A stretch of 27,475 bases of DNA, from positions 1-27,475 of the IMG/VR virus record IMGVR_UViG_3300037070_003533; one strand, written 5' to 3'. The notes below the pieces were generated by a model. That model did not search any database and was not told the origin of the DNA. It saw only the letters and a list, made by a program, of their open reading frames with translations. The position numbers were made by a program, and so were the translations under genes. Positions 73 through 27,475 of the stretch are shown here, piece by piece (position 1 is the stretch's first letter; every line of letters begins with the position of its first letter). The stretch comes from a virus.

Positions 73-342
73 TTAGTTACCGTAAACGGTTAGGTAAACG
101 CGATCAGCAGAAGTGGCGCCGGTAATTGCAACATTACCAAGGGCAGCCGTTCCAGCTGAAAGGATGTTTGGCTTAAATTTGATAGCGCCACTTGTTGCGG
201 TGTTAATCGCGGTGGACATACCAGAAATGTTTTTCAAACCAGTTGAAAGCTCATATGTTGCAGAGTCAGCGAGCAAATCCCAAACTTGCAAACGCTTATC
301 GCCAACTACGGCTTCTACTACTTTTGTCGCGGTCCAGGCCAT
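73..342 (-). CDS. Small phage structural protein, hypothetical
   Basis: An 89-residue protein beginning MAWTATKVVEAVVGDKRLQV and ending in VYLTVYGN. A GTG at 348 lies only one base from the AGGGAG Shine-Dalgarno, whereas the ATG at 342 has 7-nt spacing and is preferred. The composition (Ala, Thr, Val, Gly; no membrane segment) and the beta-rich pattern fit a small virion or accessory head protein. It follows the Maf-like gene in the head module and is followed by another small virion-type gene. Related short proteins are common in phage head/neck regions, but no function can be assigned. Confidence 0.7.
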   Translation of the reverse strand: MAWTATKVVEAVVGDKRLQVWDLLADSATYELSTGLKNISGMSTAINTATSGAIKFKPNILSAGTAALGNVAITGATSADRVYLTVYGN

Positions 343-353
343 ATTCACACTCC

Positions 354-1361
354 CTATGAATAAAGTATTTTTTTCTGCGCTTTAGCATCCGCCATTTGCG
401 CGTCTAGCTCGTCGTTGATATTGAACATTCTAAGGCAATCAGCCAAATCCATATAGCGAAAAGCCGCGATGTTACCTTCGGGGTATGATCCGAGACAGCC
501 CCCACTACAATTATAGTATATTCCAGGCGCCCGCATAGCCACCGAGTCAAAATAAGCTTTAAAGTTATAGTAGGACGGCCATGTTTTACGACGTATCCCG
601 TAAACATCTGTACACCACATGACGTGGCCCATATTTGCGTCGTACTTACTATCCCAAGCATGGAACCTATGATCATAACCAAAACAGAAATCTGCACCTG
701 TATAGATAATCTGGTGTGCCGCCAAAATTGACTTAGCAAAGTATAAACACGCACCTAGTACATTCCCACCAGTTGACAAGAAGTGATTAAACTCCTCGAT
801 CGCATCTATTTTTTGTATGAGCTCGGCATTCGGTAACGGCGAGTTAAAAAATAGTATCTTGCCTTGCCACTTCTCCAATAAACGCGGATCGGTGGCAATA
901 AAGGCGATAAGTGTTCGGTCCTTCGTGCGAGCCCAGTATTCGTCGACTGGTTTTGTCCCGCCTTCGGTAACTTCTTCGATGGTGACGGGTCCGGCGTCGA
1001 GGGTAACGTAGTATTCAGGATTGAGGTCAAGGTCTTCGAAATAATGAAAGTTATGCAAACAAGAAATAAGAGGTATGCGACCGCGATTTTTAAGATCATG
1101 CGCGTTACCTTTCAGAGAAGGACCAGAGCCCGCTATGATCGCAGGGCCATACTGGTACTTCTTGAATTCAGAGGAAATGGACCTCTCAGCGAAAGATCCA
1201 AACCGGCTTTTATTCGCCGTAATGTTTGCAAGCCAAATGTGCCACCAATGTTTAATTGTTGACTCGTCATTTGAACATGCTTGCTGGTAAAGGGCCCCCG
1301 GGGTTGCCGGAGGCCGCTCTATCAGATTTTGGTATTCCAGAATTACTTCTGCTTTTTTCAT
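354..1361 (-). CDS. DUF115 / Maf-like (motility accessory factor) glycosyltransferase
   Basis: A 335-residue protein with the hallmark nucleotide-sugar-binding motif of the DUF115 (MptE-like/Maf) family: PAIIAGSGPSL, with GSGPSL at residues 78-83. It is followed by STGGNVLGACLYFAKSIL (GGNVLGA at 198-204), GADFCFG (222-228) and YNCSGGCLGSYPEG (283-296). In bacteria Maf proteins transfer CMP-activated pseudaminic or legionaminic acid to Ser/Thr of flagellin. It is shorter than many bacterial Mafs (over 600 residues) and is essentially the core domain. It lies between the decoration-like gene (7-base gap) and another small virion gene, so it is probably co-expressed with capsid proteins. With NeuB at 8.1-8.9 kb and the sugar cassette at 22-26 kb it suggests virion glycosylation. 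Family membership is fairly sure; donor and acceptor are inferred. Confidence 0.8.
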   Translation of the reverse strand: MKKAEVILEYQNLIERPPATPGALYQQACSNDESTIKHWWHIWLANITANKSRFGSFAERSISSEFKKYQYGPAIIAGSGPSLKGNAHDLKNRGRIPLISCLHNFHYFEDLDLNPEYYVTLDAGPVTIEEVTEGGTKPVDEYWARTKDRTLIAFIATDPRLLEKWQGKILFFNSPLPNAELIQKIDAIEEFNHFLSTGGNVLGACLYFAKSILAAHQIIYTGADFCFGYDHRFHAWDSKYDANMGHVMWCTDVYGIRRKTWPSYYNFKAYFDSVAMRAPGIYYNCSGGCLGSYPEGNIAAFRYMDLADCLRMFNINDELDAQMADAKAQKKILYS

Positions 1362-1367
1362 TACAGC

Positions 1368-1838
1368 CTATAAAACTGAAATGTACGCCGTGCCTGATGC
1401 ACCAGATGCAATTGCACCCATTGCTTTAACGGCCGCTGGCGCGACATATCCTGTTGAGATTGTTTTCGCACTAAACTTACCATCAGCGGCAAGAATAAGC
1501 AAAGCACCTGCAGCAGCAGATAAGTCAGCACCCATATTTACTTGGCTAAAACCTTTGGTTACAACGTAACCGTAGTAGCCAGTAGCAATGGCAGCATGCT
1601 TAACAACGCCGACAAGCAAATCAACAGAAGTTGTAGACGAAACCGTTACCGAGTATCCGCTTACAGCAGAGACGATAACACCGTCGCCAACATTGGCCGT
1701 GCTGCTACCCGCGTTGTAAACAAAGACATAGTCCTCGTTACCAACGTGAGCAACATCACCAACGCTCGGGTCATTTACACCCAAAGAGTTAGTCACGAAG
1801 CTTGGGCCGACAAAACGAATTGGAGATAAGTTATGCAT
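1368..1838 (-). CDS. Capsid decoration-like / head protein
   Basis: A 156-residue protein rich in Gly, Ala, Ser, Thr and Val, without Cys, transmembrane segment or signal peptide. Its pattern (GDVAHVGNEDYVFVYNAGSS, then VTKGFSQVNMGADLSAAAG) resembles small beta-structured phage head proteins encoded just after the major capsid gene. A strong Shine-Dalgarno (AAGGGGG) lies 5 bases before the ATG. Position between capsid and Maf-like genes suggests a decoration or head-stabilising protein. Its Ser/Thr-rich loops make it a plausible acceptor for the neighbouring transferase, which is inference only. Confidence 0.65.
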   Translation of the reverse strand: MHNLSPIRFVGPSFVTNSLGVNDPSVGDVAHVGNEDYVFVYNAGSSTANVGDGVIVSAVSGYSVTVSSTTSVDLLVGVVKHAAIATGYYGYVVTKGFSQVNMGADLSAAAGALLILAADGKFSAKTISTGYVAPAAVKAMGAIASGASGTAYISVL

Positions 1839-1847
1839 AGGGCCCCC

Positions 1848-2774
1848 TTATGCCGCTAGAACGCTAAATTTACCGTGGTATCTGTTGTTGGTAGATGCAT
1901 AAGCACCTGCCCAGAATACCATAGCAGACTTAACGTTTTGGTTACGTGGACGCTCAAAATCATCCATGCGCATGTCTTCGTCTTTGTGCGCGAAGATATA
2001 GAAATATGCTTCGTTTACAAAGAACCAGTGTAACGCAGGACAGTTTGAACACGCTAGAACCGGAATACCGTTAAACATTAGGCTGGTGAAACCTGCTTTA
2101 GCAGATTGCTCATCAACGAAACGTTGTTGCGGTTGTAATAGACCCCAATACTTTGAGTACAAAGCTTTAGTGGTATACGCAACGGTTGGCGCTTCAGTGT
2201 CCTCAGAACATTGCATGTACAATGTCTCAAGAGCAGTTAGGCCCAAAGTTGTAGTTGCTGCGTCCACTTGACCTTGCCACCAAGAGTTGTTGGTCTGGCT
2301 GATGCCACCGATAGTATTTGCAGTCGCTACGATAGCGCGCAAACCGACCGGAGCTTTCGGGTCTGTACCAGCGTTGAAATACGCTAAAGACATGTTTTGA
2401 CGCATAGTCTTTTCAGCGTTTTTCATTTTGCTTTTTACGAAATCAATAACTTGAGCTTCGCCCATGTTCTTAAGTTCGTCGATACGTGAAATGGTGATTG
2501 GAGCTGCACATTGACGCCAGTCCCAGCTAGCGCCTGTGAAGACGTCTGCATCTGAGGTGTTGAGCGTTTCTGCACCGCTGTACCACTGAAAGTTGCCCGC
2601 GGCATATTCAAGTGGGGTGATAATTTTAGTTCCGCCGTCTACTTTTTTGTAGCTCTTCTCTTTTGCGCGTTTTAGCTCGGGTGTACCGACGAAAACGTTA
2701 TCAGCCAATTTTGGCAAGAAGTAGCGTTTAGAGACTGCGGAGATTTGATCAAAGTCTGTAGTTGGCAAAGCCAT
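1848..2774 (-). CDS. Major capsid protein
   Basis: About 308 residues starting MALPTTDFDQISAVSKRYFL. A further ATG two codons upstream (2780) lies only 2 bases from the AGGGAG, so the ATG at 2774 (8-nt spacing) is preferred. The order terminase, portal, scaffold, this gene is the canonical place for the HK97-fold coat protein. Features typical of coat proteins include an N-terminal arm, a region rich in aromatic and small residues, and a closing block with RMDDFERPRNQNVKSAMVFW. About 310 residues without a long N-terminal delta domain agrees with a separate scaffold gene directly upstream. Assignment is by context and general pattern. Confidence 0.85.
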   Translation of the reverse strand: MALPTTDFDQISAVSKRYFLPKLADNVFVGTPELKRAKEKSYKKVDGGTKIITPLEYAAGNFQWYSGAETLNTSDADVFTGASWDWRQCAAPITISRIDELKNMGEAQVIDFVKSKMKNAEKTMRQNMSLAYFNAGTDPKAPVGLRAIVATANTIGGISQTNNSWWQGQVDAATTTLGLTALETLYMQCSEDTEAPTVAYTTKALYSKYWGLLQPQQRFVDEQSAKAGFTSLMFNGIPVLACSNCPALHWFFVNEAYFYIFAHKDEDMRMDDFERPRNQNVKSAMVFWAGAYASTNNRYHGKFSVLAA

Positions 2775-2807
2775 TGTCATCTCTCCCTGATGATTGTTGT
2801 TTTAGAT

Positions 2808-3689
2808 TTAAACTTTTCTTGATGCTGCCAGATCCGCTAAAGCAAATTGTGCGGCGTCATCGTAGCTGTGCGTTTTTGGATTAAAAGCTCGACCCGGAGT
2901 ACCAGCGGACGGTGTTCGGGAAACCCCAAGTATACCGTTTTTACGCATCTCCTGGTTTTGCTTGATCACTTGCTCTTGCGCAGCTTCTTTTTGTTTCCCG
3001 ATTAGATTGTCGAAGTACATATGCTTGAAAGCCATCTCGAATTGACCAGGTTTATTGCCTTCTAGGCCCATTTCCTTCATCGTTTCGAGTGTGCGCCATT
3101 CAAGGCTACGTCCTTGCTCATCTGAAATCGCGAAATCGACACCAAATTTCTTAGCAACCGTCTCTATTTCAGAGCTAAATTGCTTATCCTCGGCCGCAAA
3201 CTGAATTTTTTGCTTCTCTGATACAAACTCGTCCTTGAGTCCGCGTAGGTCAGCAAGTTCTTTTTGCAGTGCCTCGAATCTTGGATCTTGCACTTGATTA
3301 GATTGTCCCAGATTTTGCCGGTTGTTCCAAGTCTCCTCGACGTGTTTGGCCCATTCTGGGTTCTGCTTAGCAAAGTCGTCGTATTCTTTCCAACGACCTA
3401 ACTCCTTAGCTTGTTGTTCGTAGGTCTGGTACTTACTGCGTTCTTGATCAAAGCCTTCTCGCTCACGCTTAAGAGCCTCCATCTGTTGGGCATAGTGGTA
3501 GCCCATTTGCGCACGCTTTTGCACCATCTCCCACGGTTCGGTAATCTTTTTACCGTTAACTTCGTATTCTAACTTTGATGGGTCGAATGGCGACTGTTGC
3601 GGAGCTTGTGCCTCAGGGGCCGCAGCACCAGGTGTTTCCTCTTTTACAGAGGCCAACATTTCTTCAGCGCTTAATTCTTGGTCTTGCAT
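2808..3689 (-). CDS. Scaffolding protein-like
   Basis: A 293-residue, strongly charged, Gln/Glu/Lys-rich protein with an Ala/Pro-rich N-terminus (about residues 15-40). Long predicted helices and coiled coil lie at about 60-190 (runs such as QQMEALKREREGFDQERSKY), with a short basic C-terminus ending ASRKV. This layout is typical of phage internal scaffolds that pair with coat protein through a basic C-terminal helix-turn-helix. It lies directly upstream of the capsid gene. No protease motif is visible, so a separate or absent maturation protease is implied. Confidence 0.8.
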   Translation of the reverse strand: MQDQELSAEEMLASVKEETPGAAAPEAQAPQQSPFDPSKLEYEVNGKKITEPWEMVQKRAQMGYHYAQQMEALKREREGFDQERSKYQTYEQQAKELGRWKEYDDFAKQNPEWAKHVEETWNNRQNLGQSNQVQDPRFEALQKELADLRGLKDEFVSEKQKIQFAAEDKQFSSEIETVAKKFGVDFAISDEQGRSLEWRTLETMKEMGLEGNKPGQFEMAFKHMYFDNLIGKQKEAAQEQVIKQNQEMRKNGILGVSRTPSAGTPGRAFNPKTHSYDDAAQFALADLAASRKV

Positions 3690-4019: not shown

Positions 4020-5855
4020 TTACTTGGCGGGTGGAGCAGACTGGGCCATTTCAGCCGCGGCCTGCTTCATACGCTGTGTTATTAGTTCTGCATTTGGATA
4101 CTCCAAACGCTTAAGCACTTCTTCACCGTCGATAATCTGACGGTCAAACAAGTTGAGCACCCGTTGCTCGGTCTCTTGCTTGCTAAACGGTAGTCCTGAG
4201 ATTGTGTTAACCCGAACATCCATCTCGCCACGAATTTCGTACTCCTTGGCCTCATCTGATGGGACGGTTTGCTGCAAGTCGTTCTTAACGTAGTCACGAA
4301 CAACAGCGACCCTCTTGGTGCTACCGTCTGGTTGCTCGCGATGTTCCACGTGAAACTTAAAGTACTTATTTGAGCCTTCTTGGTTAGTTAGGCGAAATAT
4401 TTGCGGTGCGGTGTAATACTGCATAACTCGAGATACATACTGCTCACCAAAGTCACGAAGCATAGAGTCAATATTTCTGACCTTTTGCTTAACCCTCTTT
4501 TGAGCGGCGTCGAGTAGGTTCTCAATCGCAGCGTTTGCCGTTACACCAGTCGGGTTAATCCCGCGTGTTACGTCCTGATCACCAGCGGTATCGTTAAACC
4601 ACTTCTCCATACGGTCCATGAATTGGAAAACCCACGGCTGTAACTGAACACCCTCAACACGTTGCGGTGCAGCATTGGCGTTATGCTCAACAACTAAGCC
4701 GGGCTCACTCGTTAAGTGACGGCTATCGGCACCTGACTCAATTGGGTTTAACCAAATCGGGTTACCCATGAGCATAAGAACGTCTAGGCCGAAGTTAACC
4801 ATCTTATTGAAAGTGGCTTGCGGTCCTTTTAGGTTCTCAAGTTCGTCAATACCGTAAAACTCGCGTGGTAATGCTGAGTTTACAAACCGTTGGAATGGAA
4901 ACTTAAGGTCATCGTACTCAAGAGGCCCGTCTTCCATGATGAAGTTGTTGATCTTGACGACTTTGCGACCGCGTGGGTATTTCAAGCGGGTAATGTAAAG
5001 TGTTTCGCCACCAGCTTCATCTTGTTGCTCGATCTCTTCAGTATCAGACGGCTTAAGGTAGGCGGTTAGTACTAGAACCTTGTCTTTTAGTTCCTCATCA
5101 GGACCCTTGCCGTAGGTTAATCGGTCTACTGCAATATCTAGATCGGTGTGTCTTTGAACGTGGAGCGTTTCGGCCGATTTCTTAGCGCGTGATAAGTCGT
5201 CCATATCAGGTTTAATTTGAGTAACGTACTTATGGCCCGCGTATTTCTTCTTTATTTTGTCTAAATCCCAAGGCTTTGCGTCAATTGCATACTCGGCCTT
5301 CTTATTGATATCGGTCGCATCTGGATCCATATACAAATCAAATGGATCTTTTGCGCCCCAATCGATACCGGGCTTACCAGCTTCAATATTCTCACACCAT
5401 TCGCAGTGACCAATACCGACTGAGTATAAGTGACCGTCGAGCATGATGCTGAATAGCTCACTCATCCAATCATTCTTTTGCCAATCAGCTTCGAATACTT
5501 GGTTTAGGATTTGAGAGAATTCTAAATCTGAGGGGTCTTGTGGTAAGAAACCGACCGTCGGACGAGTATCCATCATTACCGCAGTTTGACCCTGGATAAC
5601 TCTGAATATCATGTTGATAACTTCACGGTTCTTATAGCTAGGGCGGCGATTACCAAGCTGTTGACCACGATAGAACTTGTAGTTTTCAGCCCATGATTTG
5701 TCGTAGCGTTTTCTGTGTTTAGCGGCTTTCTTAAATAGCTTATCGACCTGCTTAGCTAACTCTAGCTCCTCAGGGGTCGGATTAGCCTCATCGTTTCCTT
5801 CGGTTGCTTGCGGACGTGGACTATTGGGGTCTAGCTGACCTGTGCCGTAGCTCAT
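4020..5855 (-). CDS. Portal protein (P22-like family)
   Basis: A 611-residue protein with the P22-type portal pattern. It has an N-terminal helical region (KLFKKAAKHRKRYDKSWAEN), then VINMIFRVIQGQTAVMMDTRP at about 80-100. A central block has DPFDLYMDPDATDINKKAEY, a clip-side region has FPFQRFVNSALPREFYGIDE, and a late helix-rich section has RVKQKVRNIDSMLRDFGEQY. The dodecameric portal forms the DNA entry vertex and docks the terminase. Its ATG overlaps the upstream zinc-ribbon stop (ATGA). A P22-like portal is common in podoviruses, but tail type cannot be decided here. Confidence 0.88.
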   Translation of the reverse strand: MSYGTGQLDPNSPRPQATEGNDEANPTPEELELAKQVDKLFKKAAKHRKRYDKSWAENYKFYRGQQLGNRRPSYKNREVINMIFRVIQGQTAVMMDTRPTVGFLPQDPSDLEFSQILNQVFEADWQKNDWMSELFSIMLDGHLYSVGIGHCEWCENIEAGKPGIDWGAKDPFDLYMDPDATDINKKAEYAIDAKPWDLDKIKKKYAGHKYVTQIKPDMDDLSRAKKSAETLHVQRHTDLDIAVDRLTYGKGPDEELKDKVLVLTAYLKPSDTEEIEQQDEAGGETLYITRLKYPRGRKVVKINNFIMEDGPLEYDDLKFPFQRFVNSALPREFYGIDELENLKGPQATFNKMVNFGLDVLMLMGNPIWLNPIESGADSRHLTSEPGLVVEHNANAAPQRVEGVQLQPWVFQFMDRMEKWFNDTAGDQDVTRGINPTGVTANAAIENLLDAAQKRVKQKVRNIDSMLRDFGEQYVSRVMQYYTAPQIFRLTNQEGSNKYFKFHVEHREQPDGSTKRVAVVRDYVKNDLQQTVPSDEAKEYEIRGEMDVRVNTISGLPFSKQETEQRVLNLFDRQIIDGEEVLKRLEYPNAELITQRMKQAAAEMAQSAPPAK

Positions 5856-6245: not shown

Positions 6246-6461
6246 TTAGATCGCCCCCGCTTCTTGGTATTTCTTAAGCTTACGCTGCAGGGTTCTGATG
6301 CCTATGCCGAGGGTCTTGGCGGTTTTGGTTCTGTTGCCTTCATGGTACTTAAGTACAAAAAAGATATGATCGCGCTCAACTTTAGCCATGGTCGATATGG
6401 AAACACCATTATCAGCGTCCCATCTAGCAATGGGATATGTAATCGTATCGATATCTACCAT
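6246..6461 (-). CDS. Fis-type helix-turn-helix protein
   Basis: A 71-residue protein whose C-terminal half (from about residue 28, ERDHIFFVLKYHEGNRTKTA, then TLGIGIRTLQRKLKKY) matches the Fis/NtrC C-terminal DNA-binding fold (HTH_8). The receiver and AAA+ domains of NtrC-type proteins are absent. It overlaps the terminase stop by 7 bases and has AAGGAG 9 bases before its ATG. Its place directly after the large terminase suggests DNA binding in packaging or late transcription. Its target is unknown. Confidence 0.75.
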   Translation of the reverse strand: MVDIDTITYPIARWDADNGVSISTMAKVERDHIFFVLKYHEGNRTKTAKTLGIGIRTLQRKLKKYQEAGAI

Positions 6462-7780
6462 CCCGAGGAACTCCTTGTAGGTCGCCTAATGCGCTCCATG
6501 CGCTCGTGTATCGATAGCTTGCGGTCATCACTTTGAGAAATAACCTGCGGCTTCTTACGATGCTCACCTGTATACGTCGCCAACGTGATGTACCTGTTAG
6601 CGTCCATTGCGTGGTCGTTTTGTTTGACCGGCAATGTGTCGTCAATATCGTTATCTGCTTTGATCTCTTTATCTGCAGGATAATGATAAGTCTCGTACTC
6701 GTCTACAGTATGCTTATTATCACCCCTGAATAGCTTGTAACGACGTGATGCTATTAATGCATAATGTAGGTCTATTCCTACCTTGATATCGTTATCGGCT
6801 GGCACCGCAGCAGATCCGTTGTTACCTATGGCCCTGTTGATCTCTAAGATGTAGCCAGGTTCTGACGGGTCACAATAAAACAGCTTAATTGGGTAGGCTT
6901 GCAGCTTCGCTTTAATGATCGCAATCATATCGGTGATACCTAAACCTGTGCGGTAGGTCTCGCTTACCTGAAAGTGATCGCCATTGGGTGTAATTGCACG
7001 AACTACGATAACAAACGGGGCTGTTGTACCAAAGTCGATACCAGCTACATACTTCGTACCTATTGGTAACTGGAATGGCTCGATCATGTTCGAGTCCTCG
7101 TCGAAACACTTATAGACGAGACCCTCCATCTTATTCCACTCACCGCCGAACATAGCGTTGAACCGTGATGGTTCCATGGTTGATTTCATGCGCTCATAGT
7201 AGTCACGAGGAAAGTACGGGTTATCGATTGATCTAGCTTTTAGATAAAGAACGTCGGGCCTTGAGTTTGGATCTCGTTGCTTAGGTCGAATAATATCTTT
7301 AAATAGCCAATTTAAGGTATAGGGAGATGTCGTGAGCAGTATTGGTGCGCCTTTAAAAGCTGCGCGAGCTTGAATATTTTCCCAAAAATACAGACTGTAG
7401 AGTCCGGCCTCATCCCCGTATATTGCTCGAACGTTGGTGATACCGACGATAGAATCAGGGTCCGTTCCAGTTCGGAAATAACATCTCCCTCCGCCATGCA
7501 TCTCAAACACAGAGTCTTGCCTGTGGAAGTTTCCGTATCCATCCATAAACCTCAAGATCGGTGGTAATGTTGACTGAGCTAATATTTTGTACGTTGGGGA
7601 TAAAACAATAAAATTGTCAGTTTCCGATGTATTCATATGCATTTGCTGCATTAGCCACAACGCACCGATTGTTGTTTTTCCATATTGCACCCCGGTTGCC
7701 AGTACTGTGATAGGACACTTACTACGTAGTGCCAGTTCCTGGGGTAGACTATGTGGAACGAATGTTATCGGTTCGGTCAT
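6455..7780 (-). CDS. terL: Terminase large subunit
   Basis: A 441-residue packaging motor. The N-terminal ATPase has a Walker A variant GVQYGKTT (residues 30-37) and a Walker B region ending RAIYGDEAG. The C-terminal RNase H-like nuclease is marked by YVAGIDFGTT (first acidic residue), FYCDPSEPG (second) and NDHAMDANRY (third). Length and order match full-length enzymes. AAAGG precedes the ATG by 7 bases. It docks on the portal and cuts and translocates DNA. Followed directly by the Fis-type HTH and preceded by a small unknown gene. Confidence 0.93.
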   Translation of the reverse strand: MTEPITFVPHSLPQELALRSKCPITVLATGVQYGKTTIGALWLMQQMHMNTSETDNFIVLSPTYKILAQSTLPPILRFMDGYGNFHRQDSVFEMHGGGRCYFRTGTDPDSIVGITNVRAIYGDEAGLYSLYFWENIQARAAFKGAPILLTTSPYTLNWLFKDIIRPKQRDPNSRPDVLYLKARSIDNPYFPRDYYERMKSTMEPSRFNAMFGGEWNKMEGLVYKCFDEDSNMIEPFQLPIGTKYVAGIDFGTTAPFVIVVRAITPNGDHFQVSETYRTGLGITDMIAIIKAKLQAYPIKLFYCDPSEPGYILEINRAIGNNGSAAVPADNDIKVGIDLHYALIASRRYKLFRGDNKHTVDEYETYHYPADKEIKADNDIDDTLPVKQNDHAMDANRYITLATYTGEHRKKPQVISQSDDRKLSIHERMERIRRPTRSSSGW

Positions 7781-7796: not shown

Positions 7797-8078
7797 TTAC
7801 GTTAACAAATGGATCTTAGCCTTAGCTTCGGCTTCGGCTTTTACCCACCCCGCAGCCTCCATCATTTTCTCGTCTAGCTCTTTTATATCATCAAAGTCTT
7901 TAACCACGATAACGTAGCACTGACTCTCAAGGAAAAACTCATGCCCAAGGCGAGAGAATTGCTCTGCTAGGTAGGGTTCTTTAACAAGTAGGACTTTGCA
8001 ACCTTCGTTATTGACTAAGCCACGTACGCGCTCGATAAAGCCTGATTTGAAGGATGTTATTTCGGTTGGTTCGCTCAT
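7797..8078 (-). CDS. Hypothetical protein between NeuB and terminase
   Basis: A 93-residue, mixed alpha/beta protein beginning MSEPTEITSFKSGFIERVRG, with an Ala/Glu/Lys-rich C-terminus (AEAEAKAKI). Its start overlaps the NeuB stop (ATGA), so the two are translationally coupled. No known domain recognised. Coupling to NeuB leaves open a role with it, but packaging accessory is equally possible. Confidence 0.65.
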   Translation of the reverse strand: MSEPTEITSFKSGFIERVRGLVNNEGCKVLLVKEPYLAEQFSRLGHEFFLESQCYVIVVKDFDDIKELDEKMMEAAGWVKAEAEAKAKIHLLT

Positions 8079-8872
8079 GTTTTCTTCGTCCTATAATACC
8101 CATTCAATTCAGGCACCCACCTACGTTTAGAGTACTTGATGAAGTCGGCTTCGTCGGGGTTCGGGAATATATATTGTTCGTCGGGTATAAGAGACCGTAT
8201 CTGCGAAACCATAAATTTGAATTCTTCTGGCAATATCGAGTGTGGGTTATCGGGTGTATTCATATCCCTAATCTTGAAATGTTTCTCTATAACCGTCGCC
8301 CCAATTTGAGCTGCGGCGAAACATTCTTGCCCTGTAGTTGTGTGGCAAGAATAACCCACCCTGTTACCAAGACGACGTTGCAGTCTATCTACTCCCGCTT
8401 TTGATATACAGGCATTATCCGACGGGTAGACAGAAACGCAATACATGGCGGTTAGGTTTGCTTCTGGATAAAGCTCAAACGGCTCCATAATCTCCTGAAA
8501 CGTACTTCCCCCCGTCGAAAACAGAATCGGCCTGCTAAGCCACACAACCATCTCCCAAATATTTGGATCACTCGTCTCCGCACTCGCAATCTTATGCCGC
8601 TTTACATACGGATCTATCATTTGATAGCCAATGGGCGAGAAAGCCGTACACATAAATTCAATTGAAACTTCTTTACACTTATCAGCAAGGATTGGGACCC
8701 ACTCGAAAGGTAACTCGCCATCCATCTCGCCGTCGTATCCGTATAGTTCTCTGTGTGTGTAAAGTTGGTATTTGACCGCATCCGCACCGCATTCTTTCGC
8801 AGCGACGATGCTATCTAGGCAGTCTTGTAGGTTGGTCCAGTTGCTACCCACCTCACAAACGATAAAGGTCAT
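8075..8872 (-). CDS. neuB: NeuB-family sialic/nonulosonic acid synthase (lacks SAF domain)
   Basis: A 265-residue TIM-barrel enzyme of the NeuB family, which condenses PEP with an N-acylated hexosamine to form a nonulosonic acid. Visible motifs are CEVGSNW (Glu7), GADAVKYQ (29-36), HKIASAE (93-99), ILFSTGGST (116-124), CVSVYPS (145-151), GYSCHT (173-178, usually GYSDHT) and VIEKHF (194-199). His177 and His198 are 21 residues apart, the spacing of the two Mn-binding histidines in meningococcal NeuB. Typical NeuB is about 340-350 residues and ends in an antifreeze-like SAF domain, which is missing here. GGAGG sits 7 bases before the ATG, and both ends overlap neighbours by 4 bases. It lies between the terminase genes. 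Confidence 0.88.
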   Translation of the reverse strand: MTFIVCEVGSNWTNLQDCLDSIVAAKECGADAVKYQLYTHRELYGYDGEMDGELPFEWVPILADKCKEVSIEFMCTAFSPIGYQMIDPYVKRHKIASAETSDPNIWEMVVWLSRPILFSTGGSTFQEIMEPFELYPEANLTAMYCVSVYPSDNACISKAGVDRLQRRLGNRVGYSCHTTTGQECFAAAQIGATVIEKHFKIRDMNTPDNPHSILPEEFKFMVSQIRSLIPDEQYIFPNPDEADFIKYSKRRWVPELNGYYRTKKT

Positions 8873-22257: not shown

Positions 22258-22506
22258 CTACCCACCAATTTTATCATGAGCGAGACGTTCCTGCTCTAGA
22301 GCCCAAAGGGACTCCTCGTCGTTAACGACGGGTTTATACTTAACCCTCGTTTTTTGGGGGAGAATTGTTTTCTTAATCGAGTCTACGGCGTCAGCTAGTG
22401 GTTTAGGCGATAGGCTTTTAGCTACCATGTAAACGATTAAAATCTGCAGCAGAAATACTATAAAGATGAGCAGATACAAAATTGCCAGATCTATAGTAAA
22501 AGTCAC
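22258..22506 (-). CDS. Small membrane protein
   Basis: An 82-residue protein from a GTG at 22506 (AAGGGA 7-8 bases upstream); an ATG at 22521 would add five residues. A strong transmembrane helix lies near the N-terminus (AILYLLIFIVFLLQILIVYM), followed by a basic, then acidic, cytoplasmic tail. It overlaps the GNAT gene by about 90 bases in another frame. Its start seam repeats that of the gene at 22191. Possible holin. Confidence 0.55.
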   Translation of the reverse strand: MTFTIDLAILYLLIFIVFLLQILIVYMVAKSLSPKPLADAVDSIKKTILPQKTRVKYKPVVNDEESLWALEQERLAHDKIGG

Positions 22507-22924
22507 GTCGCGTCCCTTCATGCTCTAAGCCCAGTTTCTCAAACATTTTTATAGCGCGGTTCCCATCGAAACTCTCACCGTAGATGCGGTTTAATCCGAG
22601 CGAATGAAAGCCCCATTCAAAGAGCGAAATAAGCCCGTCTTTAGCGAAACCTTGGTGCCAATACTCAGGGCCTACATAGAGCGAAAACTCAGCCCTGCGG
22701 TTAACCATGTCAATATCAGTCAACCCGCAGACGCCGACCAGTTTGTCGTCCACATCCATCGCAAACATTTCGATCTTGGGGTCGACCCTTTGTTTTTCCA
22801 ACCAATCGCAATGGTCCTGAAAATGAAGCGGAGCAAACTGACGGCACCATTTATAAATTGCCGGATCATTTCGCCATTCAAATAGATATTTTAGGTCCCA
22901 GTCTTTAATCCGCCTTAGTCTCAA
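22418..22924 (-). CDS. GNAT N-acetyltransferase (PseH/RimJ-like)
   Basis: A 168-residue protein, read from a TTG at 22924 (AAAGG nearby) that overlaps the preceding gene by 20 bases. LFEWRNDPAIYKWCRQ (about 14-29) and AEFSLYVGPEYWHQGFAKDG (acetyl-CoA loop, about 78-97), then NRIYGESFDGNRAIKMFEKL and GLEHEG, match the GNAT fold used by PseH-type amino-sugar acetyltransferases. In this cassette it would acylate the amino sugar before the NeuB step. Substrate inferred from context. Confidence 0.75.
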   Translation of the reverse strand: MRLRRIKDWDLKYLFEWRNDPAIYKWCRQFAPLHFQDHCDWLEKQRVDPKIEMFAMDVDDKLVGVCGLTDIDMVNRRAEFSLYVGPEYWHQGFAKDGLISLFEWGFHSLGLNRIYGESFDGNRAIKMFEKLGLEHEGTRRDFYYRSGNFVSAHLYSISAADFNRLHGS

Positions 22925-23102
22925 CCTTTGCCCCGCCTTCTTTCATTACACGGTCGTCCTCGTGTGCTTTTAGCATCCACCAGATAGCCTCTTGGCATTT
23001 AGCTAACGCCATGTCTTTACCGAACCCATCGGGGACGTTCTTATAGACGTAGTTAACGCACGGCTCAAAATGCTTTACTGCTTCACTAATTTTTGGATCC
23101 AT
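22905..23102 (-). CDS. Small helical protein, possibly Acb2/Tad1-hairpin-like
   Basis: A 65-residue protein from ATG 23102 (AGAGGG 6 bases upstream); a longer reading inside the aminotransferase is unlikely. MDPKISEAVKHFEPCVNYVY is followed by VPDGFGKDMALAKCQEAIWW and MLKAHEDD. The pattern Pro-x-Gly-x-x-Lys-x-x-Ala-Leu-x-Lys-x-x-Glu-Ala-x-x-Trp resembles the helical hairpin of Acb2-type anti-CBASS cyclic-nucleotide sponges. It overlaps both neighbours in the sugar cassette. The match is by memory of a short pattern and stays tentative. Confidence 0.45.
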   Translation of the reverse strand: MDPKISEAVKHFEPCVNYVYKNVPDGFGKDMALAKCQEAIWWMLKAHEDDRVMKEGGAKVETKAD

Positions 23103-24285
23103 CTCGTACCCTCTGTGCAAATGGTGATTTAGGCATAGCGCCTTGAAGTTTGACCTGACCAAGCTTCATGCGCGAAACAAATGATTTTAGGAACTCAAAG
23201 AACTGATAGTCAAACTCGCAGTTAGCGAATGAATAGAACCAGCTAGGACCGAACAAGAAACCCGCCTTTATAGCCTCTTGAAAGAATAAAGCCTTGTTAA
23301 CAGGATCGCCGGTGAATACGCCCCTAGTCGGGTAAGCCTCAAGAGCCACATACGGGTTAGCAAGCTCATTAAACCGCTTAATAAATTGTTCGCCCTGTTC
23401 AATTAACTTACCAATTTTGTAATTGTGTTTATTTAGCAACGTATCAACAGTCCAGCGACAAGAAGCAAGTGATAGGGTTTCGCCGGCGTAAGTCGATGAA
23501 ACAAAATAGCCACCGTCCATGATGGCTTTCTTGCCGCCAACAGCCGCTAATGGCAAACCGTTAGCTATTGCTTTACCGAGCAGAATTAAGTCGGGGTAGA
23601 TATTTGTTGCTAGGGCGACTGAATGTTTGTCAAAACGAAAGGCTGTAATAATTTCGTCAAAAATAAGCACAGTACCAGACTTATCACAACGACTTCGCAG
23701 ATTTTGTAGCCACGCAATTCGCTCATCGTCGAGCTTAGAAATAACCGGCTCAATGATAACAGCAGCAACATTATCGAGAGGTATCGACTCATCAAATCTA
23801 ACAATATCAGTGCAAGTATGAACGCCGGTTGCAGGGCTAGTAAGACTAACAAACTCATCCTCGTGTCCATGATAACCATCCGATAATACTAGTTTTCTTC
23901 CTGTATATGCTCTCGCCATTTTAATAGCCGCAGTACACGCCGCAGAGCCTGACTTTAGAAACTTAAACTTATCGACGAAGTAGAACATGCTCTTCAAGGC
24001 CTCAGCCGTTTCAACTTCATCAGTCGTCGGCAAGCTGTGGCTAAAACCTTTTTGCATGTGACGCGTTAAAGTTTCGATCAGAGATGGATGCGAATAGCCA
24101 AATAGATTGCAGCCAAGACCACAAATATAGTCCACATATCTGGTCCCATCAGTTCCGTACACCCACCCCTGGCTACCACCTGATATATGCGTCGGATATA
24201 CTCCGAAAACATGGCTATCGGGGTGCTTACTGTTCGTTAGCGCTCCCTGCGCTACCGAGTCTTGTGCACGTACCCACCAAGCCAT
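23086..24285 (-). CDS. Class III aminotransferase (glutamate-1-semialdehyde aminomutase-like)
   Basis: About 399 residues, PLP enzyme. The start ATG 24285 (1 base after the cytidylyltransferase stop) is chosen because MAWWVRAQDSVAQGALTNSK matches the usual family start; GTG 24312 and ATG 24306 are alternatives. Motifs: FLKSGSAACTAAIKMARAYT (109-128, cofactor phosphate), YHGHED (138-143), VLIFDEIITAFR (206-217, Asp210), and GKAIANGLPLAAVGG (237-251, PLP Lys238). Aminomutase-like enzymes of this type are common in surface-sugar clusters. It probably aminates a keto-sugar. Bacterial pseudaminic/legionaminic clusters normally use a DegT-type enzyme instead. Confidence 0.83.
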   Translation of the reverse strand: MAWWVRAQDSVAQGALTNSKHPDSHVFGVYPTHISGGSQGWVYGTDGTRYVDYICGLGCNLFGYSHPSLIETLTRHMQKGFSHSLPTTDEVETAEALKSMFYFVDKFKFLKSGSAACTAAIKMARAYTGRKLVLSDGYHGHEDEFVSLTSPATGVHTCTDIVRFDESIPLDNVAAVIIEPVISKLDDERIAWLQNLRSRCDKSGTVLIFDEIITAFRFDKHSVALATNIYPDLILLGKAIANGLPLAAVGGKKAIMDGGYFVSSTYAGETLSLASCRWTVDTLLNKHNYKIGKLIEQGEQFIKRFNELANPYVALEAYPTRGVFTGDPVNKALFFQEAIKAGFLFGPSWFYSFANCEFDYQFFEFLKSFVSRMKLGQVKLQGAMPKSPFAQRVRDGSKN

Positions 24286-24286
24286 T

Positions 24287-24991
24287 TTAGAATCTAAAGA
24301 CTGCATAGCCACGCTCTTTTGCTAATTTATATTTATTATCAAGGCTCGTCTTTTTTCGGGTAACGGTTTCAAAGTCCTCTAAGGTATCTACACTGAGCTT
24401 AATATCGGCCAGATCAATATGGGCAAGCACCACACCAAAACGTGCCCAACGCGGCTTTTCACGCCGTAGTAGCGTCGTAACGTGCTCCTGATCAAACGAA
24501 CTGGTAGCGTTATCGACAAGCCATTCAAACGCCCTAGCCGAGATAATCTCAACGTCGTAACCGTCAACAAAGGTGCGCATATCCTCGTAAGCATTTGAGC
24601 AGTAATCGAGGTTAATACCAATCGACGCGGTAATGTGCTTTGTAATGATGGTCGGGATAATTAGCGGGCAATCACCCGTTAACCGCACGATGTAGTCAGG
24701 CGAATATTTTTCGTAAGCAATCCTATATCGCTCAAGGACGTTATCCTCAGGACCTTCAATTACATCACGCTCATCAAAATGGTCTTTTAGCGGGTCATCT
24801 TTAGGAACAACCAAACAGGTTTTAGCTGTGATGTTAGTGCTACCCGACGCACGATTTACATAAGATGCGCTAAGTTGTGCGGTATTGAAAACATGCCCCG
24901 CCATGATTTGATCATCGATTATTCTAAGAGACTTTCCTGGTAGGCGTTTACTGCCCGATCTGGCTTGGATTGCAATTAAGACTTCTGGCAT
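24287..24991 (-). CDS. SpsF/NeuA-like cytidylyltransferase
   Basis: A 234-residue nucleotidyltransferase. IAIQARSGSKRLPGKSL (6-22) is the nucleotide-binding loop of the CMP-sugar synthetase/SpsF group. GPEDNVLERYRIAYEKYSPD, then YIVRLTGDCPLIIP (about 81-114), has the metal-binding Asp. It would activate a keto-acid sugar as its CMP derivative, the donor expected by the Maf-like enzyme. It overlaps the oxidoreductase gene by 16 bases. Confidence 0.8.
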   Translation of the reverse strand: MPEVLIAIQARSGSKRLPGKSLRIIDDQIMAGHVFNTAQLSASYVNRASGSTNITAKTCLVVPKDDPLKDHFDERDVIEGPEDNVLERYRIAYEKYSPDYIVRLTGDCPLIIPTIITKHITASIGINLDYCSNAYEDMRTFVDGYDVEIISARAFEWLVDNATSSFDQEHVTTLLRREKPRWARFGVVLAHIDLADIKLSVDTLEDFETVTRKKTSLDNKYKLAKERGYAVFRF

Positions 24992-25596
24992 GCGTGCTCC
25001 AAAATCTTAGCAACCTTAGTGTGGGCGTGAAGCGCATACTCCCAGTTAGATATCGGGTTAGCAATCCAGCGGTCGATCATGTCGATATAGGCTTGATCCA
25101 TCATTTCGATACCAAGCTGTTTACCGTTAATCGTGCATTGCCACTCAGGACTAGTGTTATTGACGATACAGCCGTCTTTTGCTAGGCCGAGAACATTAAG
25201 ACAATCCCAGTAGAGCCCATCGCCCCCTGTTTTGAAATAGTTGTAATAAGAAGGCTCATCTTGAGCGGTGCCAGCTATTTCGGCGTACTGGTTAACCATA
25301 GAAATCAGGTGCCGATCGCTTCTCCAAACGTCGTTAACGTCGAGCAATGCGGAAAGCTCCTTAGTTAACGGTTTCTCGCACAAGATCGGCTTTTGAAAGC
25401 TTAGGCAGGCTGAAATGTCAGCCAGGTGTCTTTCGGTTGGTGTGCAAACAATAAAATGAGTCGCCTCGTGAGCCTGATAATGAAACGGTTCGTTCTTATC
25501 GTGACCAACGTGCGCTACACCAAGAAAGTTAAGAATAGCTTTGTAACGAGAGGCCATATTGCCGTTATAGCCAAGTATGTAAACGAGTTTATTCAC
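24976..25596 (-). CDS. Gfo/Idh/MocA-type oxidoreductase, short
   Basis: A 206-residue protein. The Rossmann start LVYILGYNGNMASRYKAIL (4-22, GxxGxM form), THFIVCTPTERHLADISACL (46-65) and KPILCEKPL (69-77) identify the family. Usual length is about 320-350 residues, so the C-terminal substrate domain is reduced. It sits between the dehydratase and cytidylyltransferase genes, overlapping both. In surface-sugar clusters such enzymes oxidise or reduce sugar nucleotides or nonulosonic acids. Confidence 0.75.
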   Translation of the reverse strand: MNKLVYILGYNGNMASRYKAILNFLGVAHVGHDKNEPFHYQAHEATHFIVCTPTERHLADISACLSFQKPILCEKPLTKELSALLDVNDVWRSDRHLISMVNQYAEIAGTAQDEPSYYNYFKTGGDGLYWDCLNVLGLAKDGCIVNNTSPEWQCTINGKQLGIEMMDQAYIDMIDRWIANPISNWEYALHAHTKVAKILEHACQKS

Positions 25597-26452
25597 CGAG
25601 TGTCCTTTCGACTAAAGCCATTAATTCATCGTCAGTGTATTTTGGCGCAGTGTTGCTTTTAAATTCAAAATCAGGGTCGTGATAATCGAGCGACTCGTGC
25701 ATTTTCTCGCCAGGCCTAATAGGTATTGGAACAACCTTGTAATCATTGATACCCAAGTACTGCGCGGTAATACGAGCAAGGTCGATTAATGCCGCAGCTT
25801 TCATATTTGGGATATAAGGATTGCCGTCGTTTCCAAACTTAAAGTTTTCGAGCATAAAGTTTGCCGCGTCGTCAATGTGGATCCAGAAGCGGGTCATATG
25901 TAAATCTGTGATGTATACTTTACGTTCTTGTTTCAGGGTTTGGACAAAGCTATGAAGCACAGAGCCCCTAGAACCGAGCACGTTACCCCATCGGAAAACA
26001 TTGTAGATATCTCCGCCGCTTTTTACACCAGCGTCAAACCAAACCTTTTCAGACAAGGCTTTGCAATACCCGTAGCTATTGATAGGTAGCACCGCTTTAT
26101 CGGTCGACGAGAACACGGCATAGCTAACCTCACTAATCCGGCAAGCTTTAGCGACGTTAAGTGTTCCGGTTAAGTTGATTTTGATGCACTCAGATAGATT
26201 TGTCTCAGCGAGGTCCACGTGCTTCATCGCGGCTAAGTGAAATACTACGTCAGCGTCCCAACAGGCCTCGGTAACGCTTTCTAAATCACGTACATCACCA
26301 AGAACATAGCGACATCCGGGATATGTGGCGGCCATTTTCTTCTGCTTAATTTCTTCGCGGGAAAATATGGTTACTTCGTGACCAGAGAGTAAAAGCTTTG
26401 GGGTCAAAGCGTTTCCCAGGGTTCCAGTTCCGCCAATAAGTAAAACTCTCAT
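25589..26452 (-). CDS. UDP-GlcNAc 4,6-dehydratase-like (PseB/FlaA1 type)
   Basis: A 287-residue SDR enzyme from ATG 26452 (AAGGGA 5 bases upstream), preferred over an upstream in-frame GTG. The NAD(P)-binding loop GGTGTLG is at 7-13. FHLAAMKHVDLAETNLSECI is at 71-90. The catalytic set is SSTDKAVLPINSYGYCK with Asp118, Lys119 and Tyr127 (PseB-like). FRWGNVLGSRGSVLHSF and RPGEKMHESL follow, all typical of PseB/FlaA1/CapD short forms. It would make a 4-keto-6-deoxy sugar nucleotide, the first step of pseudaminic- or bacillosamine-type sugars. First enzyme of the cassette. Confidence 0.87.
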   Translation of the reverse strand: MRVLLIGGTGTLGNALTPKLLLSGHEVTIFSREEIKQKKMAATYPGCRYVLGDVRDLESVTEACWDADVVFHLAAMKHVDLAETNLSECIKINLTGTLNVAKACRISEVSYAVFSSTDKAVLPINSYGYCKALSEKVWFDAGVKSGGDIYNVFRWGNVLGSRGSVLHSFVQTLKQERKVYITDLHMTRFWIHIDDAANFMLENFKFGNDGNPYIPNMKAAALIDLARITAQYLGINDYKVVPIPIRPGEKMHESLDYHDPDFEFKSNTAPKYTDDELMALVERTLGE

Positions 26453-26453
26453 T

Positions 26454-26687
26454 CTAATCCCTTCGAATGAAAACGCTTTCGGGTGCCACGCGTTCAATGT
26501 GAAATAAGACGTCACCACGAAGCAAATCGGCCATGAATTGCTGGGTTTCGTAGCTTGGGTTTTCTTTAAATTTGTTTTTTAAGGATTTGAGTTGTAGTTG
26601 GAAATTTCTGGCGCGAAATACCCAAAAAAGCGCTAATAGAGACATGAAAATACACAAAGCCGCCAGGGCATAAACCATAAAAAGCAT
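26454..26687 (-). CDS. Small single-pass membrane protein, first gene of sugar cassette
   Basis: A 77-residue protein. ATG 26687 is chosen because a TTG at 26696 lies inside the operator dyad. One N-terminal transmembrane helix (YALAALCIFMSLLALFWVFR) is followed by a basic coiled stretch and a conserved-looking tail (PSYETQQFMADLLRGDVLFH, then IERVAPESVFIRR). Short phage membrane proteins with this tail are familiar but unassigned. Its stop lies one base before the dehydratase start. Confidence 0.6.
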   Translation of the reverse strand: MLFMVYALAALCIFMSLLALFWVFRARNFQLQLKSLKNKFKENPSYETQQFMADLLRGDVLFHIERVAPESVFIRRD

Positions 26688-26691
26688 AAAC

Positions 26692-26748
26692 GTCAACTTT
26701 TAAAAATTAATATGTATTAACTCTAAAAGTTGACCGCCTATATGTCAA
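26692..26748 (-). promoter_or_regulatory. Sugar-cassette promoter with nested operator dyad
   Basis: On the minus strand TTGACA (26748-26743), a 17-base spacer and TAGAGT (26725-26720) form a promoter. A perfect 11-bp inverted repeat (GTCAACTTTTA at 26692-26702, TAAAAGTTGAC at 26724-26734) encloses a second dyad TTAATATGTATTAA (26707-26720). One arm overlaps the spacer and the -10 edge; the other lies past the start site. This would give the cassette its own regulated transcription. Confidence 0.6.
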
Positions 26749-26753
26749 GAAAA

Positions 26754-27475
26754 CTAGATGCGAGCAATTTGCGTGATAATAAACTGCACGAAATTTCCCG
26801 TCGCCATACCGGAAGCCACCCCAACATGCGGCCTAACCACGTCAGCAGCCGCAAGTCTAACTGTTACCGCAACGCATCCCGGACCGTTAGTACCGCCGTT
26901 TGACGTGATACCAGCCAAGCGCTCAGCTGCAGATAGGGCTAAAACTCCGGTTGTTAAGTTGGCCGAGTTTAAAGAAATACCCATATCAAGCACGCTCGCC
27001 GAACTTAATGAGTTGGTATAGGTGATTGAATAAACCCCGGGCTGATTAATCGTAAATGTTGTAGCGGTAGTAGCCGCATCAGCAGCAGTGATCGAGGTAC
27101 CCACGGTCGTAAAATTGGTTAGCCGCGCAATTCTGGTACTCGTCGATCCAGTAGTTGCGATGCCCGTATCGGCGCGAATCTGCCCGTTCACCACAAGGTC
27201 TTTTCTTATAAAAAGCCACCCGGTTCCGTCGCACTGAATAGTCACGGAGTCATATTGAACATACATCGTGTATGTTGTAGCGCCATCGATGGTTTCGGAG
27301 TTCTCGCCATCAAGAATACACTTACCCACGCCACTATCGACTTTTTTGATGGTGATTCTTCGACCCGAGTTATCCGCAGCTGTCGGCAATGTAATTGTTC
27401 TATCAGAGGCTCCGGTAGTCATCCAAATGATGTCAATACCATCAGTATCAGTGATAACGTAGTCAGCGCTTTCTT
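26754..27475 (-). CDS. Tail fibre / appendage-like protein, C-terminal part
   Basis: The frame is open through the right edge, so this is the 3' 240 codons of a longer gene. An internal Met at 27422 is not the true start: the codons before it (SADYVITDTDGIDIIW) continue a usual motif with TTGASDRTITLPTAADNSGR and RITIKKVDS. Late Gly/Thr/Ala beta-strand blocks (FTINQPGVYSITYTNSLSSA) resemble jelly-roll C-terminal domains of appendages. It is expected to be the last gene of a tail module lying outside the window. Confidence 0.75.
   Translation of the reverse strand, partial: ESADYVITDTDGIDIIWMTTGASDRTITLPTAADNSGRRITIKKVDSGVGKCILDGENSETIDGATTYTMYVQYDSVTIQCDGTGWLFIRKDLVVNGQIRADTGIATTGSTSTRIARLTNFTTVGTSITAADAATTATTFTINQPGVYSITYTNSLSSASVLDMGISLNSANLTTGVLALSAAERLAGITSNGGTNGPGCVAVTVRLAAADVVRPHVGVASGMATGNFVQFIITQIARI

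Follow-up and report, generated by a model that had tools for sequence, protein, structure and literature searches.

The window, that is, the whole stretch of DNA analyzed here, is an entire IMG/VR contig of 27,475 bases (IMGVR_UViG_3300037070_003533). A run of head genes lies on its minus strand in the order, from upstream to downstream, terminase-like, portal-like, scaffold-like, major capsid protein (MCP), decoration-like protein (DECO), Maf-like transferase (MAF), and g91 (Table 1). The intergenic gaps are 9 bases between MCP and DECO, 6 bases between DECO and MAF, and 5 bases between MAF and g91. The ORF coordinates are exactly as an earlier note on this DNA gave them, but the DECO-MAF gap, put there at 7 bases, is 6. 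The same note had placed the transferase gene inside the head genes, and it does lie there, with MCP and DECO upstream and small g91 downstream. A second contig, G003, matches the window at 99.98% over 21 kb and represents the same phage. It departs from the window at position 26748, in the fiber gene region (26748-27475), and rejoins at position 2, making it a fiber-region variant.

Table 1. Head genes and sugar-pathway genes of the window, with the basis of each assignment.
Feature	Position	Strand	Basis
g91, 91 aa, small gene downstream of MAF; no assigned function	73-348	-	
MAF, single-domain Maf/MptE-like (PF01973) transferase, 335 aa	354-1361	-	Pfam, AlphaFold2 model, fold and profile matches
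DECO, predicted capsid decoration protein, 156 aa, candidate acceptor	1368-1838	-	AlphaFold2 fold matches, conserved Ser/Thr columns
MCP, major capsid protein, 310 aa, alternative candidate acceptor	1848-2780	-	NCBIfam NF033394 (2.3e-76), phrog_9953, Ser/Thr columns
Scaffold-like protein	2808-3689	-	Position between portal and MCP; conserved in relatives
Portal-like protein	4020-5855	-	Position and size; conserved in relatives
Large-terminase-like protein	6455-7780	-	Position and size; conserved in relatives
NeuB/PseI-like nonulosonate synthase	8075-8872	-	PF03102 5.6e-42; NeuB family profile vs 8h2c 1.5e-47
PseH-like GNAT acetyltransferase	22418-22924	-	Acetyltransf_3 1.1e-18; TIGR03585 PseH 2.1e-19, below cut-off
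Class-III aminotransferase (HemL-like)	23086-24312	-	PF00202 3.2e-36
Cytidylyltransferase (CTP_transf_3), presumed CMP-sugar synthase	24287-24991	-	PF02348 2e-15; PDB 6oew 9.2e-18
Gfo/Idh/MocA-like protein, no assigned role	24976-25596	-	PF01408 2.1e-4, just below cut-off
PseB-like UDP-GlcNAc 4,6-dehydratase	25589-26518	-	TIGR03589 3.8e-63, below cut-off; PDB 2gn4 3.7e-53

What kind of enzyme is MAF? Its sequence matches the Pfam MptE-like family PF01973 at 2.8e-18, passing the cut-off and covering nearly the full profile. An AlphaFold2 model made from 16 phage relatives has a pLDDT of 92.7, and its top fold match in the PDB is the Magnetospirillum Maf 5mu5 (Foldseek 2.9e-9, probability 1.00; TM 0.49 by query length). 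The MAF sequence profile also reaches 5mu5, at E 3.4e-4. The next fold matches are archaeal MptE/HPPK (8sd5) and then the human sialyltransferase ST8SiaIII (5bo9), a structure that holds bound CMP-3FNeu5Ac. Thus, the label “Maf-like transferase” used in the earlier note is borne out by the PF01973 match and the best fold match. Magnetospirillum Maf has three domains (PMC11339370); MAF does not show this architecture and is predicted to consist of the central catalytic-type domain only. Nor was a flagellar locus with a flagellin acceptor found: MAF lies in the head operon, and its neighbors are capsid genes. MAF also matched the phiX spike protein G (Pfam 0.0048, below the cut-off; PDB 0.25), and this was taken as chance.

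DECO has no match in Pfam, PHROG, or NCBIfam, and searches of the PDB and of cultivated phage records found no relative by sequence. Its AlphaFold2 model (pLDDT 83.5) has 11 PDB matches at E<=0.001, every one a virion protein; the matches are capsid proteins of HFTV1, Pam3, T1, FCWL1, XM1, and TW1, together with the base of the phi29 head fiber. Hence, calling the protein decoration-like is structurally supported, by prediction. It is also true that DECO is Ser/Thr-rich, as first described (18.6%; family median 19.9%), yet this is ordinary for the structural proteins compared: g91 has 19.8%, the next gene 22.4%, the fiber 23.8%, and the post-capsid gene in five phages of a sister capsid lineage 13.7-24.9%. 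Because the same richness is seen in other structural proteins and in sister phages, composition was rejected as an argument for DECO as a sugar acceptor. As for the location of these residues, Ser/Thr is nearly fixed at positions 13, 16, 63, and 67 of 71 DECO proteins. In the same 71 proteins, 7 of 17 Ser/Thr-rich columns fall within residues 57-70, which hold a GYSVTVSSTTS stretch in a hairpin modeled with lower confidence (hypergeometric 1e-4, with the segment picked post hoc). One locus, L132, carries two DECO genes in tandem.

The MCP-DECO-MAF order is nearly invariant. Gene order is conserved over about a hundred diverse contigs, and the arrangement is more than chance. A MAF-queried search found fifteen contigs that read, DNA permitting, NeuB - TerL - portal - scaffold - MCP - DECO - MAF, usually followed by g91, which is absent in 2 of 16 records. 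A scan that used the capsid gene as its query, and not MAF, found 311 MCP matches, of which the best 80 were listed per scan; among the matches listed, DECO comes next in 80/80 loci and MAF is present in all 77 uncut loci, the other three ending before MAF. A second scan with a distant MCP as query, on contigs that partly overlap those of the first, gave DECO in 57/58 loci and MAF in 55/55 uncut loci among the matches listed, and a scan with diverse MAF proteins placed DECO adjacent in 66/67. One contig alone in these sets departs from the pattern: 3300013089_000004 (L128/G040/L279), a 21.7-kb record that is itself a fragment, where DECO was not detected and MAF is intact about 90 bases after MCP. 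In the loci L006 and L007, on contigs that are apparently the same phage, the MCP gene is split into two gapped ORFs, which may reflect an insertion, an intron, or an assembly error. Upstream of the NeuB/terminase region lie variable genes (L018:1400-3133, L031:15812-16957, L179:9041-9727) for a DNA methylase, a laminin-G-like lectin domain, and an FkbM methyltransferase, the last in the pathway-less phage G025 described below.

The sister lineage provides a view of the same slot outside the clade. Among its 80 loci listed, a DECO homologue follows MCP in 51 at a lenient cut-off, and most of these DECO loci have no MptE-like gene. Pfam scans of the post-capsid slot found an MptE-like protein in at least 13 of the 80 loci listed, directly after a DECO match in 8 loci; these proteins differ from MAF in architecture, either carrying a methyltransferase or FkbM fusion or having long N-terminal extensions. 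These counts suggest that the slot acquires MptE-like enzymes more than once, and they show that DECO exists without them. The earlier note had proposed co-occurrence of the DECO and MAF genes across related phages as a check on their partnership, and had counted free carriage of one without the other against it. Linkage is near-perfect inside the clade, while free carriage is seen in part: DECO often occurs without MAF in the sister lineage, and L128 has MAF with no DECO detected. Near the post-capsid slot of one sister-lineage phage (L251:3326-4111) is a hexapeptide-repeat transferase, possibly a sugar-modifying enzyme.

Could MAF simply be an inherited passenger of the head operon, functionally unconnected to its neighbors and linked to them through common descent alone? 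In the MCP tree, one branch (support 0.993) splits 90 MAF-phage sequences from 8 others, so the gain of MAF and of the sugar pathway described below may be one event, and the linkage counts are not independent. However, members of the clade lie far apart on this tree (median 1.12 substitutions per site), and still 66 columns are invariant among 16 MAF proteins. Moreover, MAF is present in every uncut locus, and different MptE-like proteins refill the slot in sister phages. We regard the passenger explanation as very improbable.

MAF phages appear, from the families that their genes match, to encode a CMP-nonulosonate-type pathway. The best PDB match of the NeuB family profile, 8h2c, is a pseudaminic acid synthase, and the PseB-like protein, which matches the UDP-GlcNAc C6 dehydratase 2gn4, keeps the STDK and YxxxK stretches. 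The PseB, PseH, and PseI relatives all score below the NCBIfam equivalog cut-offs, and the sugar is therefore described only as pseudaminic/legionaminic-like. The aminotransferase of the operon is class III and not a DegT-type PseC, and no PseG-like UDP-sugar hydrolase was found among the scanned proteins, which represent part of the ORFs. Among 22 long records of MAF phages, the class-III aminotransferase is present in 22, NeuB in 21, the cytidylyltransferase in 19, and the dehydratase in 18; among 25 long sister-lineage records, neither NeuB (0/25) nor the cytidylyltransferase (0/25) was found (Fisher 1.8e-12 and 2.2e-10, respectively, with shared ancestry ignored). The genes PseB-Gfo-CTP-AmT-GNAT form a conserved run in the 16 records read gene by gene, and NeuB adjoins the head genes in most relatives. 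Variants of this layout occur. In G036, all the genes are in one run, NeuB-Gfo-CTP-AmT-GNAT-PseB; in the GC-rich members G019 and G020 (L035, L037), Gfo and CTP are fused; and G014 has no PseB. The G014 aminotransferase (L033:1321-2967) has a mid-protein insertion of about 140 residues, without a Pfam match in the insert. G025 keeps MAF, DECO, and MCP and has none of NeuB, CTP, Gfo, GNAT, and PseB; an aminotransferase relative remains. The window NeuB is 265 aa long, with most of the C-terminal SAF (antifreeze-like) domain gone, a truncation common to the near-identical contig G003; phage relatives keep the SAF domain. This truncation, which makes activity uncertain, and the lack of a PseG-like match among the scanned proteins count against the glycosylation reading set out below.

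Because the pathway is absent from G025 and from those sister phages that carry MptE-like genes, the donor could differ; the sister phages would need a host-made donor or another sugar. MAF could have a different PF01973 activity: it might be pterin diphosphokinase-like or transfer some other sugar, with a virion protein or the nucleotide pool as its target, and the sugar operon would then serve, for example, the tail fibers. The occurrence of MptE-like genes without the pathway is consistent with this possibility, as is the naming of PF01973 after archaeal MptE, the second-best fold match, and the sugar operon adjoins fiber genes. Nevertheless, the best fold match is a Maf, and the ST8Sia sialyltransferase comes right after MptE. 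In addition, the orthologous MAF accompanies NeuB and the cytidylyltransferase at the frequencies given above, and NeuB sits beside the head genes in most relatives. We consider a different activity unlikely.

How might these genes work together? We infer a donor sugar, a transfer reaction, an acceptor, and a purpose from the gene identities, predicted folds, synteny, and co-occurrence, and we conclude that the phage probably encodes a self-contained capsid-glycosylation system. The PseB-like dehydratase, class-III aminotransferase, PseH-like acetyltransferase, and NeuB-like synthase would convert UDP-GlcNAc to a nonulosonic acid, presumably pseudaminic/legionaminic-like, and the cytidylyltransferase would activate it to the CMP-sugar. 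MAF would be expressed from the late head operon, immediately after the capsid and decoration proteins. For known Mafs, the donor is a CMP-nonulosonate and the acceptor residues are surface-exposed Ser/Thr (PMC11339370). Late in infection, MAF would act in the host cytoplasm, where it would O-glycosylate Ser/Thr on a protein of the capsid surface, either ahead of assembly or while it proceeds. The outcome would be an acidic sugar coat on the capsid that could provide charge or shielding, adhesion, or stability.

An alternative target is the host rather than the virion: MAF could, during infection, add the phage-made sugar to host flagellin or another surface component, thereby blocking other phages or mimicking host glycans. 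Every characterized Maf acts on flagellin (PMC11339370), and phage enzymes that modify the pseudaminic acid of the host capsule are described for Acinetobacter (PMC12053666). The position of MAF argues against a host target. In essentially all relatives it lies between MCP/DECO and small genes of the late head operon, neither a flagellar nor a polysaccharide gene adjoins it, and other MptE-like genes recur in the capsid slot of the sister lineage. Modification of the host therefore seems to us a rather poor prospect.

If a capsid-surface protein is glycosylated, which protein would it be? DECO is the candidate we put forward, tentatively and at somewhat less than an even chance, because it is adjacent to MAF and presumably surface exposed. 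An Aeromonas Maf is reported to suit Ser/Thr flanked by hydrophobic residues (PMC11339370). By analogy, the DECO hairpin, with Ser/Thr between hydrophobic residues, would suit such an enzyme. An alternating pattern of Ser/Thr and hydrophobic residues is also common in beta strands. A loop of MCP (residues ~172-180) is a doubtful but credible acceptor, favored by L128, which has MAF without a detected DECO. This loop carries a Ser/Thr cluster at 174-178 and 180 whose conservation is comparable to that in DECO, and the cluster is kept in L128. Residues 172-181 of MCP contain a clade mean of 5.75 Ser/Thr, as compared with 6, 3, 1, 2, 1, and 3 in six phages of the other lineage. There is a small chance that the acceptor is a different protein of the virion, for example g91 or a fiber, and a similarly small one that it is not a virion protein.

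What would be the implications of such a system? Taken at its broadest, the proposal is that a whole lineage of tailed phages produces a sialic-acid-like sugar and coats its capsids with it, by means of a Maf-type transferase that recognizes a decoration protein, and that, with the sister MptE-like genes, capsid O-glycosylation is widespread and repeatedly adopted. We hold this as a serious possibility that falls a little short of even. If it is correct, there are several consequences. First, Maf-type nonulosonate O-glycosylation would extend from flagella to virus capsids. Second, phages would bring along both the transferase and the means to make its sugar. Third, about seven genes and a small acceptor would form a system in which to ask why a phage wears an acidic, sialic-acid-like coat, with adhesion, shielding, and stability as candidate uses. 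Fourth, the system might become a new tool to O-glycosylate proteins in E. coli. Fifth, phage proteins that databases name just “MptE-like” would gain a testable function.

Among 50,697 deposited phage records, no relative of MAF, DECO, NeuB, or CTP was found; class-III aminotransferase matches in these records were remote, were judged from hosts and fragment sizes to be mostly bacterial contamination, and were discounted. GTDB genomes yielded no close MAF homologue or prophage, and the MCP search of GTDB found just two remote (28%) MAG contigs, with MAF absent. G019 and G020 carry a tyrosine-integrase gene (361 aa, PF00589), which suggests that some of the lineage may be temperate; the genome scan yielded no prophage.

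Each part of the proposed system resembles something familiar. The bacterial Mafs of Magnetospirillum (5mu5), Clostridium botulinum, Aeromonas caviae, and Campylobacter share with the phage MAF the PF01973 domain and its fold, a genome that also encodes a NeuB/CMP-sugar pathway, and a gene position beside the presumed acceptor. In contrast, the phage MAF, at 335 aa, lacks both the N-terminal and the C-terminal domain of the three-domain Maf and sits in a head operon with no flagellin. The PseBCHGIF pathway and the Bacillus SpsM-C-D-G-E-F pathway (PMC7439481) have dehydratase, acetyltransferase, synthase, and cytidylyltransferase steps that are also represented in the phage, whereas the phage has a class-III HemL-like enzyme in the aminotransferase position, an extra Gfo-like protein, no hydrolase among the scanned proteins, and a pathway split between two regions. 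DECO is like the decoration or cement proteins of T1, Pam3, XM1, TW1, and HFTV1, and the phi29 head-fiber base, in predicted fold, size, and post-capsid position; it differs in having no relative by sequence in the PDB or in the searched records of cultivated phages, and in being followed by MAF. Acinetobacter phages have pseudaminic-acid epimerase and acetyltransferase genes (PMC12053666, PMC6586298) and thus also act on nonulosonic acids, although these genes reportedly tailor a host capsule sugar and are not reported to form a whole pathway with a head-operon transferase. A search of an open-access library of papers found no description of such a system. Maf-flagellin glycosylation, nonulosonate pathways, decoration proteins, and phage editing of pseudaminic acid are already known; what is new is that they are combined, at a constant position within the head operon.
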